From NCBI GenBank assembly GCA_905479835.1, contig CAJQNZ010000044.1, positions 1-42,532 on the forward strand: 42,532 bases of DNA. Reading direction: 5' to 3'. Positions 27,522 to 40,688 of this stretch are shown piece after piece. Position numbers and translations under genes: made by a program. How positions within the stretch are numbered: the first letter of the stretch is position 1; each line of letters opens with the position of its first letter. Origin of the DNA: an uncultured Flavobacteriaceae bacterium. Its GTDB lineage: Bacteria > Bacteroidota > Bacteroidia > Flavobacteriales > Flavobacteriaceae. The notes beneath the pieces are model-generated. The model was not told the origin of the DNA, made no database searches, and saw only the letters and a program-made list of their open reading frames with translations.

Positions 27522-28130
27522 TTGAGTATTATCGATACATATAATACAGTTGTTGATTCGCTGGAAGGCGAAGTGTTTAAAGATAGAGGGAGTAAGTTTA
27601 TAGGATATGTTTTTCCTGTTTCTAATGAAGATCAAGTAAAGTCTTGTATAGAAAAATTGAAATCTCAGCATCATAAAGCGCGTCATTGGTGTTATGCTTG
27701 GAGAATAGGGATGGAGCAAGACAAAATTAAATTTCGAGTTAATGACGATGGAGAGCCCAATAATAGTGCAGGTCAACCCATTTATGGTCAATTGTTATCA
27801 TTTGAAATTACAAATGCTCTAGTAGTAGTTGTTCGTTACTTTGGAGGAACTAAACTTGGAGTAGGAGGGCTGATAAATGCGTATAAATCATCAGCTAAAC
27901 TTGTGCTTGATGAGGTTTCAATTGTTAAAAAGACCATTAATATTACTTTTGAAATTACATTTGATTATGAGCATATGGATAAGGTAATGCGAATAATTAA
28001 AGAAAAAAAACTAAAAATACTTAGTCAGCAAATGGAGTTGAATTGTGTATTTCAGACATCAGTTAGAAAAAAAGAGGCAGAAAGAGTTAAAAAAGCATTT
28101 CAAGATTTACGTTGTTTAATGATCAAATAA
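27522..28130 (+). CDS. YigZ/IMPACT family protein
   Basis: The protein has 202 residues from a TTG at 27522, two bases after the ribD stop. No in-frame ATG lies near, and the N-terminus SIIDTYNTVVDSLEGEVFKDRGSKFIGYVFPV is the family start. The IMPACT signature is clear: HKARHWCYAWRIG, NDDGEPNNSAGQPIYGQL and VVVVRYFGGTKLGVGGLI. Family members in E. coli and yeast are linked to translation or stress signalling, but a biochemical role is not settled. The 3' end overlaps the convergent thioesterase by 15 bp. Confidence 0.92.
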   Translation: MSIIDTYNTVVDSLEGEVFKDRGSKFIGYVFPVSNEDQVKSCIEKLKSQHHKARHWCYAWRIGMEQDKIKFRVNDDGEPNNSAGQPIYGQLLSFEITNALVVVVRYFGGTKLGVGGLINAYKSSAKLVLDEVSIVKKTINITFEITFDYEHMDKVMRIIKEKKLKILSQQMELNCVFQTSVRKKEAERVKKAFQDLRCLMIK

Positions 28131-35554: not shown

Positions 35555-36970
35555 ATGAAAAAAGTTTTAAGTTTAGTTTTAGTTTCAGCATTGGGAGGAG
35601 CAATGACTCTAGGTGCTTATAAACTTTTTGTTGAAAAAAACGATGTTGTTTATGAACATCAAGAGCAAGAAAGTTTAAATAATTTTCAGGCTGCTTTTGT
35701 AAATACTCCAACAATCAATAGTGAGCCTTCAGACTTTACAGAAGCTTCTGAAAAAACATTGAGTACTGTTGTTCATGTTAAGAATAAATCTATCTCTACT
35801 TCTAGAAATTCATTTGAAGAATTATTTTTTGGTCCAAATGGTAGAGTAGAGAGGAAGCCAAAAATTAAAATTGGTTTTGGAAGTGGCGTTATCGTTTCTT
35901 CAGATGGATATATTATTACTAATAATCATGTAATTGATAATGCCAATGACATTGAGATAGTACTTAATAATAAGAAATCGTATAAGGCTGAATTAATTGG
36001 AACAGATGCAAGTAATGATATCGCATTGGTTAAGATAGATGCAAAAGATTTACCTTACATTACTTTTGGAGATTCAGATAATGTTAAAGTTGGTGAATGG
36101 GTATTAGCAGTTGGAAATCCTTATAATTTAACAGCAACAGTTACAGCAGGAATTGTAAGTGCCAAAGGAAGAGATCTTTTGCGTAATAATAACACTACCG
36201 AATCTTATATTCAGACAGATGCAGTTGTTAATTCTGGAAATAGTGGGGGAGCACTTGTGAATACTTATGGAGAATTGATAGGTATTAATACAATGATTAC
36301 ATCAACTACTGGTTCATATATCGGATATTCATTTGCAGTTCCTTCTAATATTGCAAAAAAAGTAATTGAAGATATTATGGAGTTCGGTAATGTCCAACGA
36401 GCTTTTATAGGGATTAACTACAGAGAATTGGATGGAAATATCAATAAAGATTTTGATGTTTCGAATACTGAAGGAGTTATAATTACCAATGTATTGGAAG
36501 ATAGTGGAGCAAAAAAAGCAGGGATTAGAATTAATGATATTATTGTAAAAGCAGATAATGTTGATGTATCTACTTTTGCTGATTTAAGTGGTTTTTTAAG
36601 TGCTCAAAGACCTGGAGATGTAATTGATTTTACAATTATAAGAAACGGAAGTCAAAGTATTATCCCTGTAGAATTGTATAAAAACGAAACTACCACAGTA
36701 AATCGTCTAGGACTAAACTTAGAACCATTAAATTCATTAGAATTAAAAAGTAATAAATTAAAACAAGGAGTAAAAATATCAAGTATCATTAATCCTAAAC
36801 TTGCATATTTGGGGTTAAAAAGAGGTTATATTATTACAGGAATTAATGGGCAAGTAATTCAAACAGTAGAAGATGTAAGTACTCTTGTTAATAATTTAAA
36901 TTCTGATAGTAGACTTGTGCTTGAAGTTCTTAATGAAAATGGAGTTACAGAACGTTATATATATGAATAA
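35555..36970 (+). CDS. Do-family serine endopeptidase (HtrA/DegP-like)
   Basis: Periplasmic quality-control protease. The protein has 471 residues: an N-terminal signal or anchor (LSLVLVSALGGAMTLGAY), a trypsin-like domain with the complete triad His125 (TNNHVIDN), Asp155 (SNDIALVKI) and Ser230 (NSGNSGGALV), then two PDZ domains (about 270-370, with GVIITNVLEDSGAKKAGI, and 385-470, with GVKISSIINPKLAYLGLKRGYIITGING). Length and layout match DegP/DegQ. It is a single gene with a promoter and a strong terminator; envelope-stress control is plausible but not shown. Confidence 0.95.
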   Translation: MKKVLSLVLVSALGGAMTLGAYKLFVEKNDVVYEHQEQESLNNFQAAFVNTPTINSEPSDFTEASEKTLSTVVHVKNKSISTSRNSFEELFFGPNGRVERKPKIKIGFGSGVIVSSDGYIITNNHVIDNANDIEIVLNNKKSYKAELIGTDASNDIALVKIDAKDLPYITFGDSDNVKVGEWVLAVGNPYNLTATVTAGIVSAKGRDLLRNNNTTESYIQTDAVVNSGNSGGALVNTYGELIGINTMITSTTGSYIGYSFAVPSNIAKKVIEDIMEFGNVQRAFIGINYRELDGNINKDFDVSNTEGVIITNVLEDSGAKKAGIRINDIIVKADNVDVSTFADLSGFLSAQRPGDVIDFTIIRNGSQSIIPVELYKNETTTVNRLGLNLEPLNSLELKSNKLKQGVKISSIINPKLAYLGLKRGYIITGINGQVIQTVEDVSTLVNNLNSDSRLVLEVLNENGVTERYIYE

Positions 36971-37099: not shown

Positions 37100-37432
37100 A
37101 TGGATAAAAAAACATATGAACAAGAATTAACTTTCCAGACAGATAGAAGAAGGGCTTCTGTCGAATTTATGAAGTTAATAAGTGATTTATGGTATGATAA
37201 CACTATTGAATTGGTATTCTTTAGAAATCAATTGATTGATAGAAATGTAAGTGAGATATTAAATTTATTAGAATATGCAACAGAATTTGTAGGGAAATCA
37301 ATTTCAATTTTTGACGCTGTAGAGATTGCAAATACGATAAAATTATTGAACTTACCTCCATCTAAACTTGATATAGGAAAATTGGTTTATGAATATCAAT
37401 CGGATAATTCAGATAATATTTATGGTTTTTAA
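37100..37432 (+). CDS. gap: N-terminal domain of glyceraldehyde-3-phosphate dehydrogenase, cut off by a frameshift
   Basis: The 110 residues match the N-terminal extension of the long (~480-residue) GAPDH found in flavobacteria: FQTDRRRASVEFMKLISDLWYDNTIELVFFRNQLIDRNVSEILNL and FDAVEIANTIKLLNLPPSKLDIGKLVYEY. The frame stops at TAA (37430-37432) right after a run of five T. If the run had six, the reading would continue from YGF into LSEKLKEAHATELIQPKDV, joining the catalytic part with no gap. The combined length would be 479 residues, as expected for the family. So this is either a true mutation, a recoding site or a sequencing error. Taken alone, it could be annotated as a hypothetical protein. 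Confidence 0.85.
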   Translation: MDKKTYEQELTFQTDRRRASVEFMKLISDLWYDNTIELVFFRNQLIDRNVSEILNLLEYATEFVGKSISIFDAVEIANTIKLLNLPPSKLDIGKLVYEYQSDNSDNIYGF

Positions 37433-37440
37433 GTGAAAAA

Positions 37441-38538
37441 TTGAAAGAAGCACATGCTACAGAATTGATTCAGCCAAAAGATGTAGTTCTTTATGGATTT
37501 GGTAGAATAGGTAGATTGGTTGCTAGAGAATTAATGAGTAAGACTGGAAAAGGTCAACAGATGCGTTTGAGAGCCATCGTAACAAGAGGTAAAATAGACA
37601 AGACGGTATTGGATAAAAGAGCCTCATTATTGAAAAGTGATTCTGTACATGGAGATTTTTCTGGAACAGTACGTGTTGATTTAGAAAAAAATGCATTGGT
37701 AATTAATGGTACTACTGTACATGTCATTTCTGCGAATGCTCCTGAAGACATTGATTATACACAATATGGTATTAAAGACGCATTGGTAATTGATAACACA
37801 GGTGCTTTCAGAGATAAAGAAGCTTTAAGTCGTCATCTAGTTTCTAAAGGTGTCAATAAAGTTTTATTAACTGCTCCTGGAAAAGGAATTCCTAATATCG
37901 TTTATGGCGTGAATCATCTTGAGCATACATCAGATTCTACAGATATATTCTCAGCAGCTTCTTGTACTACCAATGCAATTACTCCTATTTTAAAAGTTGT
38001 TGAAGATAATTTTGGAGTAATAAATGGGCATCTAGAAACGATTCATGCATATACCAATGATCAAAATTTGGTTGATAATATGCATAGTAAATATCGTAGA
38101 GGTAGAGCGGCAGCTTTAAACATGGTAATCACTGAAACCGGAGCAGGAAAAGCAGTTTCAAAAGCTTTACCTTCATTAGAAGGAAAATTAACTTCTAATG
38201 CGATAAGAGTTCCTGTTCCTAACGGATCATTGGCAATATTGAATCTCCAATTAGAAAAATCTGCTGGATCGGATACTATGAATTCAATGATTAAAAAATA
38301 TGCATTGGAAGGAAATCTAGTTGAGCAAATAAAATATTCTTTGGACAATGAATTGGTTTCTTCTGATATCGTTGGGTCATCTGCTCCTGCGATTTATGAT
38401 AGCAAGGCAACTATTTCAACAGAAGACGGAAAGACAGTTGTATTGTACATATGGTATGATAATGAATATGGCTATAGTCATCAAGTAATTCGATTAGCTA
38501 AACATATTTCTAAGGTAAAACGTTTTACTTATTATTAG
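37441..38538 (+). CDS. gap: Glyceraldehyde-3-phosphate dehydrogenase, catalytic part of the frameshifted gene
   Basis: Oxidises glyceraldehyde 3-phosphate to 1,3-bisphosphoglycerate in glycolysis or the reverse in gluconeogenesis. The NAD(P)-binding start VLYGFGRIGRLVARELM and the active-site Cys (SAASCTTNAITPIL, residue 175 of this fragment) with its partner His (LETIHAYTNDQN) are present, as is the C-terminal WYDNEYGYSHQVIRLAKHI. The listed TTG start at 37441 is an artefact of the frame; the reading frame is open upstream to 37417 and joins the N-terminal domain if one T is added. All catalytic residues are intact. Confidence 0.93.
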   Translation: MKEAHATELIQPKDVVLYGFGRIGRLVARELMSKTGKGQQMRLRAIVTRGKIDKTVLDKRASLLKSDSVHGDFSGTVRVDLEKNALVINGTTVHVISANAPEDIDYTQYGIKDALVIDNTGAFRDKEALSRHLVSKGVNKVLLTAPGKGIPNIVYGVNHLEHTSDSTDIFSAASCTTNAITPILKVVEDNFGVINGHLETIHAYTNDQNLVDNMHSKYRRGRAAALNMVITETGAGKAVSKALPSLEGKLTSNAIRVPVPNGSLAILNLQLEKSAGSDTMNSMIKKYALEGNLVEQIKYSLDNELVSSDIVGSSAPAIYDSKATISTEDGKTVVLYIWYDNEYGYSHQVIRLAKHISKVKRFTYY

Positions 38539-38646: not shown

Positions 38647-39243
38647 ATGAAAAATATAGTTCTATTTTTTTTATTAACTTCATTAGTTATACCATCAATT
38701 GCTCAACAACAAAACACAATGAAAGATGTGCCTTATTATGAAATGCCAGAATACTATGAAACCTATACAATAGGAACAGTTATGGCTAGAATGCTTGATG
38801 GATTGGGATTTCGTTATAGATGGTCAACTGAAGATTTAAAAGAAGAAGATTTACGATATAGACCTAGTGAAGATGCGAGAACAACAATTGAAACAATAGA
38901 TCATATTTATAGTCTTTCAAATGTTATTTTTAATACTGTAACTGGAGTTTCAACAGATTTTACAATTGAAAATACTGAATTATCATTTGTTGAGAAAAGA
39001 ATCAAGACACTTCATAATTTTAAGAAAGCTAGTGATATTTTAAAAGGAGTGACAGATTTAGAAACGCTTAAAATTAAATTTATTTCTAAAAAAGGTGCGT
39101 CTGAATATCCTTTCTGGAATTTGATAAATGGACCTATAGAAGATGCTATATGGCATTCAGGACAGTTGGTTTCTTTCAGAAGATCTTCTGGAAACCCAAT
39201 GAATTCAAAGGTGAGTTTTTTAACTGGAAAAGTCAGAAATTAA
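38647..39243 (+). CDS. Exported DinB-like protein
   Basis: The protein has 198 residues with a Sec signal peptide (NIVLFFLLTSLVIPSIAQQ, cleavage near residue 20). The mature part is a four-helix bundle of the DinB/YfiT type: a metal-binding His in ETIDHIYSL and another in DAIWHSGQLVSFRRSSGNPM. The second segment is the typical C-terminal motif of DinB-like proteins (W-H-x-G-Q-x-x-x-x-R). No enzymatic role is known; some members act as bacillithiol- or mycothiol-dependent transferases. Export is unusual for the superfamily. The 3' end overlaps the convergent thioredoxin-like gene by 24 bp. Confidence 0.82.
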   Translation: MKNIVLFFLLTSLVIPSIAQQQNTMKDVPYYEMPEYYETYTIGTVMARMLDGLGFRYRWSTEDLKEEDLRYRPSEDARTTIETIDHIYSLSNVIFNTVTGVSTDFTIENTELSFVEKRIKTLHNFKKASDILKGVTDLETLKIKFISKKGASEYPFWNLINGPIEDAIWHSGQLVSFRRSSGNPMNSKVSFLTGKVRN

Positions 39244-40635
39244 ACGTTTTTGATTTTCAAGTTTTTTCAATTGTCTCTCTAGGAATGGAGAGGATAAGAA
39301 GGTGAAACTATTAGAAATAATACCATCATCATTAATTAAAATGGTTCTTGGTTGAAGGCTTCTAATGTATTTTTTTGCACTACTATTTTCAGTAAGAATA
39401 TATTGATTGTTTAAATTTTTATTAACTTTTGCTTCTTTATTTGGATGGATATTGATTCCTACAAAAACTAATGAAGGATGATTTTTCTGCAAATTTTTCA
39501 CTCTTTTAATAAGAATATCTTGGCTCATCATTTCCGGAGACCAAAAATAAATCACGGCTTTTTTATTTTTTATAATCGATTTAATAGTCGTTGTAGTATT
39601 ATTCAAGGATATTAAATCGAAATTTTCAAGAGGTTTGTGTGTTTTTATACTTTCACAATCTGCTGCCAATTTTTGAATTCTATCCATATGATATTTATTC
39701 GTAGAGTTTGCATTAAATATTTCTAATGCTTCTTTATTAATTGCACAAGAAGACTGATTTTCTCTAAAATCATTAAAAATGGCTTGGTATAACAATTGGT
39801 TTTTAAATTCCTCTATAGTGATTTTTTCTATAATCGTATTTAAAAGGTGTACCGTTAAATTATTTTCTTGTTCAGAATAACTTTTCGAATAAGCTAAATT
39901 ATACAATTGGCTACTTACATAATTATGGTAAGTGAAAAATGAAAGTAAATCCTCATTATTGAGATTGATATCTTTTCTATAATTATAATAAGATTCAGAA
40001 ACCTCGGGAAATGAATCCAAATGCATTCTATTTTTATGGATATAAGGATACATTTCCTTGCGTCTATATATTGGATAATTTATTGCAACGTCTACTAATT
40101 TATTAAATCCATCTGATAAAATTATTTTTGAATTTTTTAACCTTGTGAATTGTTCTAAATTGATCTTCTGTACAGAGTCTATTTTTTTTTCAAAAACAGG
40201 ACTTTCAAAATCTGAAAACGTATGAAATTCATAATTATCTTTCTCGTTTTTTAAATATGAAGAAATTAAAAAATTGTTTTTTTCTGCACCTTTCCCATTA
40301 AATACAAGAGATTCGTCAAAATCCCACGTATTCAACCGTATAATGATACTATCGGTAGGTTCTATATAAACATATTGAAATTCGAATCCTTTTTTATAAG
40401 ATCCATGCTTGAAAGAGTACAAGCCTTCTGAAATTGAGTCAAATCTCATCAAAAATGAATTGTCAGGTTTCAGCCATATAGTATCTAATGCTTTTTCATC
40501 TTTATATAAAATAACATTATTGCTTTTTGGATTGACAATCTGACCTCCAAAGAATGTTGGTTGAGTAGTTTTATCAGTATTACTACAACTGAAAAAAGTA
40601 AAAATAACAATCAATATTAGTAAAATATTTTTCAT
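39220..40635 (-). CDS. Lipoprotein with a thioredoxin-like C-terminal domain lacking CxxC
   Basis: From the ATG at 40635 the protein has 471 residues with a lipobox Cys at residue 17 (FTFFSC). The frame opens at 40683 but the start there has no homology to a signal. The N-terminal ~110 residues (FFGGQIVNPKSNNVILYKD, KPDNSFLMRFD) resemble the beta-sandwich found at the start of Bacteroidota TlpA-type lipoproteins. A helical middle follows. The C-terminal ~120 residues have a thioredoxin fold (KAVIYFWSPEMMSQDILIKRV, FVGINIHPN, PRTILINDDG), but the redox motif CxxC is absent: the site reads FWSPEMMS (364-371). So it is not a disulfide reductase; a binding role is possible. Confidence 0.8.
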   Translation of the reverse strand: MKNILLILIVIFTFFSCSNTDKTTQPTFFGGQIVNPKSNNVILYKDEKALDTIWLKPDNSFLMRFDSISEGLYSFKHGSYKKGFEFQYVYIEPTDSIIIRLNTWDFDESLVFNGKGAEKNNFLISSYLKNEKDNYEFHTFSDFESPVFEKKIDSVQKINLEQFTRLKNSKIILSDGFNKLVDVAINYPIYRRKEMYPYIHKNRMHLDSFPEVSESYYNYRKDINLNNEDLLSFFTYHNYVSSQLYNLAYSKSYSEQENNLTVHLLNTIIEKITIEEFKNQLLYQAIFNDFRENQSSCAINKEALEIFNANSTNKYHMDRIQKLAADCESIKTHKPLENFDLISLNNTTTTIKSIIKNKKAVIYFWSPEMMSQDILIKRVKNLQKNHPSLVFVGINIHPNKEAKVNKNLNNQYILTENSSAKKYIRSLQPRTILINDDGIISNSFTFLSSPFLERQLKKLENQKRLISDFSS

Positions 40636-40680
40636 TTCTTTATGAGGTAAACTTTGCTTTAAATTGTACGGACAAAAATA

Positions 40681-40688
40681 CAAATATA
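40681..40688 (-). promoter_or_regulatory. Putative -7 element of the thioredoxin-like gene
   Basis: On the minus strand this reads TATATTTG, a TAnnTTTG match, 45 bp before the chosen start codon. It also supports the start at 40635 over 40683. Confidence 0.45.

Follow-up and report, generated by a model that had tools for sequence, protein, structure and literature searches.

The window, a stretch of 42,532 nucleotides from a draft genome of an uncultured Flavobacteriaceae bacterium, carries a gene of the long GAPDH type (NF006139) whose reading frame is broken by an offset of one base. The break is confirmed in the sequence as given, and it stems either from a recent mutation or from a single error of assembly. 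We place about even probability on a real and recent loss of an accessory, GapB-like gene. The finding is ordinary, because an intact GAPDH, by its context the glycolytic one, was found elsewhere in the same genome. A broken GAPDH is thus no paradox: the broken copy appears to be the dispensable long type, the type I gene linked to pfkA is intact, and our result is mainly a correction. It also carries a caution: where a draft genome shows an isolated break of one base, recoding should not be read into it.

The N-terminal region of the gene (37100-37432, + strand) begins with ATG, encodes 110 aa and matches positions 3-104 of the NF006139 profile. The catalytic frame (37417-38538, + strand) is 373 aa long from stop to stop and matches positions 123-477 of the same NCBIfam model, together with Pfam Gp_dh_N and Gp_dh_C. 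The profile search therefore placed both pieces in order on a single model. The two frames overlap over 16 bases (37417-37432, + strand), which hold the site of the -1 offset and include a run of five T (37426-37430). The upstream frame ends with GGT TTT TAA, the TAA stop being located at 37430-37432. Both the offset and this arrangement around the T run are as the preliminary description gave them. It also let the catalytic part begin at 37441; the frame is correct, but it is already open from 37417, and TTG 37441 is no more than a putative start, the first start-like codon met in this frame (365 aa from there). Apart from the offset, both pieces are open. They are adjacent and offset by -1, where members of NF006139 have one continuous frame. 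A single GAPDH-type gene of about 479 residues interrupted by a one-base offset, as first proposed, is borne out by the two profile matches and by the continuity of the gene in relatives.

The relatives' loci consist of 29 loci from a search of 60 genomes (own genome included) and of the best 80 of 590 from a named genome collection. In all 109 of them, the N-terminal and catalytic parts lie in one frame, and each locus has a single open frame exceeding 400 aa (three loci are exact duplicates). A split or offset gene at the site was found in none of these 109 loci (29 plus the best 80 of 590), nor were the separate ORFs that had been put forward as the sign of a true split gene. Within the genus, the long type was detected in 12 out of 14 genomes; none of the 11 copies besides that of the window is broken, with one extending up to the end of its contig. 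The disabling lesion is therefore absent from the orthologs, as expected of a pseudogene, both in the 109 loci (including the best 80 of 590) and in the 11 genus copies. Upstream of the broken gene lies a conserved neighbour encoding a Do/HtrA-family serine protease (35555-36970, + strand; model match). An HtrA gene is found at most 1.2 kb upstream and in the same direction in 99 of the 106 loci with at least 900 nt of upstream sequence (including the best 80 of 590). This conserved neighbour marks the window copy as the usual ortholog rather than a stray duplicate. In its own genome, which is 81.8% complete, the N-terminal piece occurs at a single place.

The preliminary description attributed the break to one T lost from the run. 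The one-base offset stands, but the identity of the base does not follow, as the codon before the run fits equally well. A Phe occupies the aligned column in 109 out of 109 relatives' loci (29 plus the best 80 of 590), and in the same set the T run is mostly shorter than six, with six T in only 4 loci. Ten printed genus-mate copies have five T (6 copies), six T (3 copies) or two T (1 copy) at the site. Because most of these genus-mate copies have five T or fewer, a base of the T run is not the sole candidate: the loss may have struck either the run itself or the variable codon that precedes it. The homopolymer reading of the lost base is therefore plausible, as one fit among others.

We then considered which GAPDH is affected. 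The catalytic piece scores 603.3 bits against NF006139 (curated cut-off 431) and narrowly misses the type I GAPDH model TIGR01534 (363.7, cut-off 367.2). The genome encodes a second, intact GAPDH of 333 aa on contig C28, which scores 440.5 against the same type I cut-off of 367.2 and lies directly downstream of the 6-phosphofructokinase gene pfkA (426.1, cut-off 371.35). By this context, the C28 copy is predicted to be the glycolytic GAPDH. The upstream neighbours of the long GAPDH in the window are of the HtrA, DapF and MltG types, not the context of a glycolytic gene, and the window gene is best assigned to the long type of about 480 aa. The designation 'glycolytic' given to it at first has thus to be withdrawn, while the possibility of a second GAPDH elsewhere in the genome, raised in the same description, proved right. 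The two enzymes share 40% identity, residues 16-359 of the TTG-started catalytic frame aligning with the type I protein. It had also been stated that all catalytic residues survive; this holds for the SCTTN cysteine and the next conserved histidine, which we take to be the catalytic residues and which are present in the window enzyme.

The cofactor site reads IND in the C28 copy and IVTRG in the window enzyme (a pair placed by eye, the automatic alignment of this stretch being loose), and at a second cofactor site the window enzyme has N-M where the type I copy has G-P. In a study on Escherichia coli GapA, replacing the Asp of the cofactor site gives NADP activity, and the choice of N for the second site followed the NADP-linked GapB of Bacillus subtilis (PMC9145139). 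An NADP-GAPDH that accompanies an NAD-GAPDH is described as serving mainly gluconeogenesis (PMC4518329). On these residues, the window gene probably encodes an NADP-linked, gluconeogenic accessory enzyme, both cofactor and role being predictions.

Across the family, a long-type copy over the cut-off was found in 151 out of 199 genomes (own genome included). Among the other 48, 32 are listed as at least 90% complete. In the genus, the two genomes with no long-type copy above the cut-off are 97% (G006) and 77% (G004) complete. Because 48 of the 199 family genomes and a 97%-complete genus-mate have no above-cut-off copy, the long-type GAPDH appears to be dispensable in the family, and the expectation that the gene is essential does not hold. 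A glycolytic and essential gene is ruled out by the pfkA-linked copy on C28 together with the absence of the long type in many genomes. An open frame of at least 470 aa is present in 149 of the 151 genomes over the cut-off, the exceptions being this genome (G000) and G194.

The G194 copy belongs to another genus and to a one-contig genome (C1, 1330003-1331440; locus L206), and is also frame-broken. Its pieces match profile positions 3-142 and 137-478, compared with 3-104 and 123-477 in the window; its break lies further downstream, inside the Rossmann loop as judged by eye. In the same order, a GAPDH that is about 40-44% identical to that of the window (G052, contig C113, 8674-9859) gives two separate matched pieces, and is possibly another broken copy.

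We also looked for signs of decay in the gene. The mean dN of the catalytic part to five more distant relatives is 0.124, compared with 0.131-0.148 for six genus-mates. For the N part the mean is 0.171 compared with 0.135-0.167, i.e. marginally the highest. These values come from a Nei-Gojobori dN/dS script; dS was near or at saturation and dN alone was used, with rows L010-L014 (themselves among the five distant relatives, and mis-averaged by the script), L015 and L016 left out. From dN and from the open frames, neither the relaxed constraint nor the further lesions that would mark a pseudogene were found in the window GAPDH. This fits a gene under normal constraint until very recently, whether the break is a fresh mutation or an error.

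The reading to which we give about even probability would run as follows. One base would have dropped out of the weakly conserved linker that joins the N-terminal region to the Rossmann domain, so that translation from ATG 37100 would end after 110 residues and no full-length enzyme would be made. The mutation would be recent, and fixed or segregating in the sampled population. The loss would be tolerated because the pfkA-linked type I GAPDH is intact and would cover glycolysis, and because the long type appears dispensable in the family. We infer, on this balance, that the break is a true feature of the organism and not a local assembly error, and that no useful product is made.

The most serious alternative, which we hold to be somewhat under even probability, is that the gene is intact in the organism and that one base was dropped in the draft, e.g. 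through low coverage or strain mixing in metagenome assembly. Several observations agree with it: the lesion is single, with no rise of dN in the catalytic part; the preserved SCTTN cysteine and conserved histidine are equally compatible with an error and with a very recent mutation; and no break was seen in the 11 other genus copies. The assembly is fragmented, a draft in 76 contigs, with a possible misjoin elsewhere (C23), and the broken long-type copy of G194 indicates that isolated breaks occur in the collection, from error or from mutation. General proneness to indels is not seen, however. The sequence taken for a homology scan comprised the window, a further 312 kb of its genome and about half of one genus-mate. 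In the own genome, relatives' proteins at 55% identity or more covered 99.5 kb, the window accounting for 31.2 kb (an earlier scan with fewer queries covered 25 kb). Within these 99.5 kb of conserved coding sequence, A/T runs of at least five number 981, of which 369 reach six or more, and no frame break came to light apart from that at the GAPDH site. The scan recovered 151 out of 196 simulated single-base losses, so that about a quarter are missed and other breaks may have escaped it. Because only one break was found in 99.5 kb with 981 A/T runs, widespread homopolymer error in the assembly is unlikely, and an assembly riddled with such errors is ruled out by the same sample. A homopolymer sequencing error, first named as the most likely cause, is therefore possible and not favoured, on a detector that misses about a quarter of the losses.

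A second scan used a codon-phase Markov model to search for frame jumps in 354.5 kb of the genome, a total that includes the window. It gave 60 junctions, of which 8 were inspected (the 7 without a nearby ATG and one more). Apart from GAPDH, the inspected junctions look like two different neighbouring proteins, a judgement made by model for RibD/YigZ, partly by model for locus L124 and by eye for the rest. This detector is weak, with a junction in 95 out of 150 simulated losses and only 52 out of 150 passing the no-ATG filter, and we therefore relied on the homology scan instead. At the RibD/YigZ junction, a YigZ-family gene of the window (27522-28130) directly follows ribD without a nearby ATG; its first start-like codon is a TTG two bases after the ribD stop. 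In L124 (778-1617 on contig C23), a LETM1-related remnant is joined in frame to a DUF1697 domain. The remnant comprises the last 85 matched residues (profile 308-392 of 396) directly after the end of another gene, and the joined frame looks like a deletion remnant or a misjoin.

It could be that the sequence has the true number of bases and that the cell nevertheless makes the enzyme, through a slip at UUU-UAA or through re-initiation at TTG 37441; we regard this as improbable. Under re-initiation, the core would start at TTG 37441, eight bases after the TAA, and the N-terminal region would be made separately. The TTG-started frame does hold a complete GAPDH core (the 16-359 alignment to the own type I enzyme), the catalytic part is constrained and the TTG is preceded by five A. 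As a start codon, TTG is generally weak. The AAA-TTG sequence encodes Lys-Leu, the same residues being found in most printed fused relatives, and needs no role in initiation; moreover, none of the 109 relatives' loci (29 plus the best 80 of 590) is split. In Flavobacterium johnsoniae, A at -3 and at -6 promotes initiation (PMC6847099); the five A before TTG 37441 include the favoured A at -3, while position -6 is a G. Re-initiation is thus unlikely; if true, it would represent a young gene fission in central metabolism, with a two-chain GAPDH newly arisen from a fused gene.

Weakest of all is slippage, either -1 on the ribosome at TTT before UAA or transcriptional on the T run, to yield some full-length protein. 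With T TTT ahead of a stop codon, the sequence allows re-pairing in the -1 frame, but the offset is conserved in 0 out of 109 relatives' loci (29 plus the best 80 of 590), which are continuous at the site. No stimulatory stem-loop was found downstream of the stop, where the RNA folds no better than shuffles (z +0.46). The run is T5 only, and transcriptional slippage usually needs longer runs. In addition, the G194 copy breaks elsewhere, which argues against a recoding signal tied to one site. No evidence was thus found for the ribosomal or transcriptional slippage listed among the first explanations, which we judge very improbable. A conserved programmed frameshift is ruled out by the continuous relatives, the lack of a stem-loop and the position of the G194 break.

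Downstream of the GAPDH gene, the ORFs at 38647-39243 (198 aa) and 39220-40683 (487 aa) have no NCBIfam or Pfam match. Within the limited flanks covered, a relative of the 198-aa ORF occurs at just 5 of the 110 GAPDH loci (loci including the best 80 of 590).

Finally, we compared the window gene with known systems. Literature searches on the Flavobacteriia GAPDH pair, on 8JB1 and on indel errors in metagenome assemblies returned no relevant paper; among solved structures, the chain closest in sequence is 8jb1_A (488 aa). With the long-type GAPDH of about 480 aa (NF006139 / PRK08289), the window gene shares the ordered match of its two pieces and the upstream HtrA neighbour common to most relatives (99 of 106 loci, including the best 80 of 590), but it is one base short at the linker and so lies in two frames instead of one. 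With type I GAPDH (TIGR01534, GapA), it has the catalytic core and the SCTTN motif in common. It differs by its long N-terminal region, by having no pfkA neighbour and by lacking the IND stretch, whose Asp favours NAD. A further parallel concerns the GapB/GapA pair of B. subtilis, as presented in PMC9145139: the window gene would likewise be a second isoenzyme beside an NAD-type GapA and, like NADP-linked GapB, its product lacks Asp at the cofactor position (IVTRG) and carries N for G as the first residue of the second site. According to the same study, the next residue, position 189, is K or R in NADP-type enzymes, and the window enzyme has M there; the window gene also belongs to a longer protein family, and its role and cofactor are predicted from sequence.
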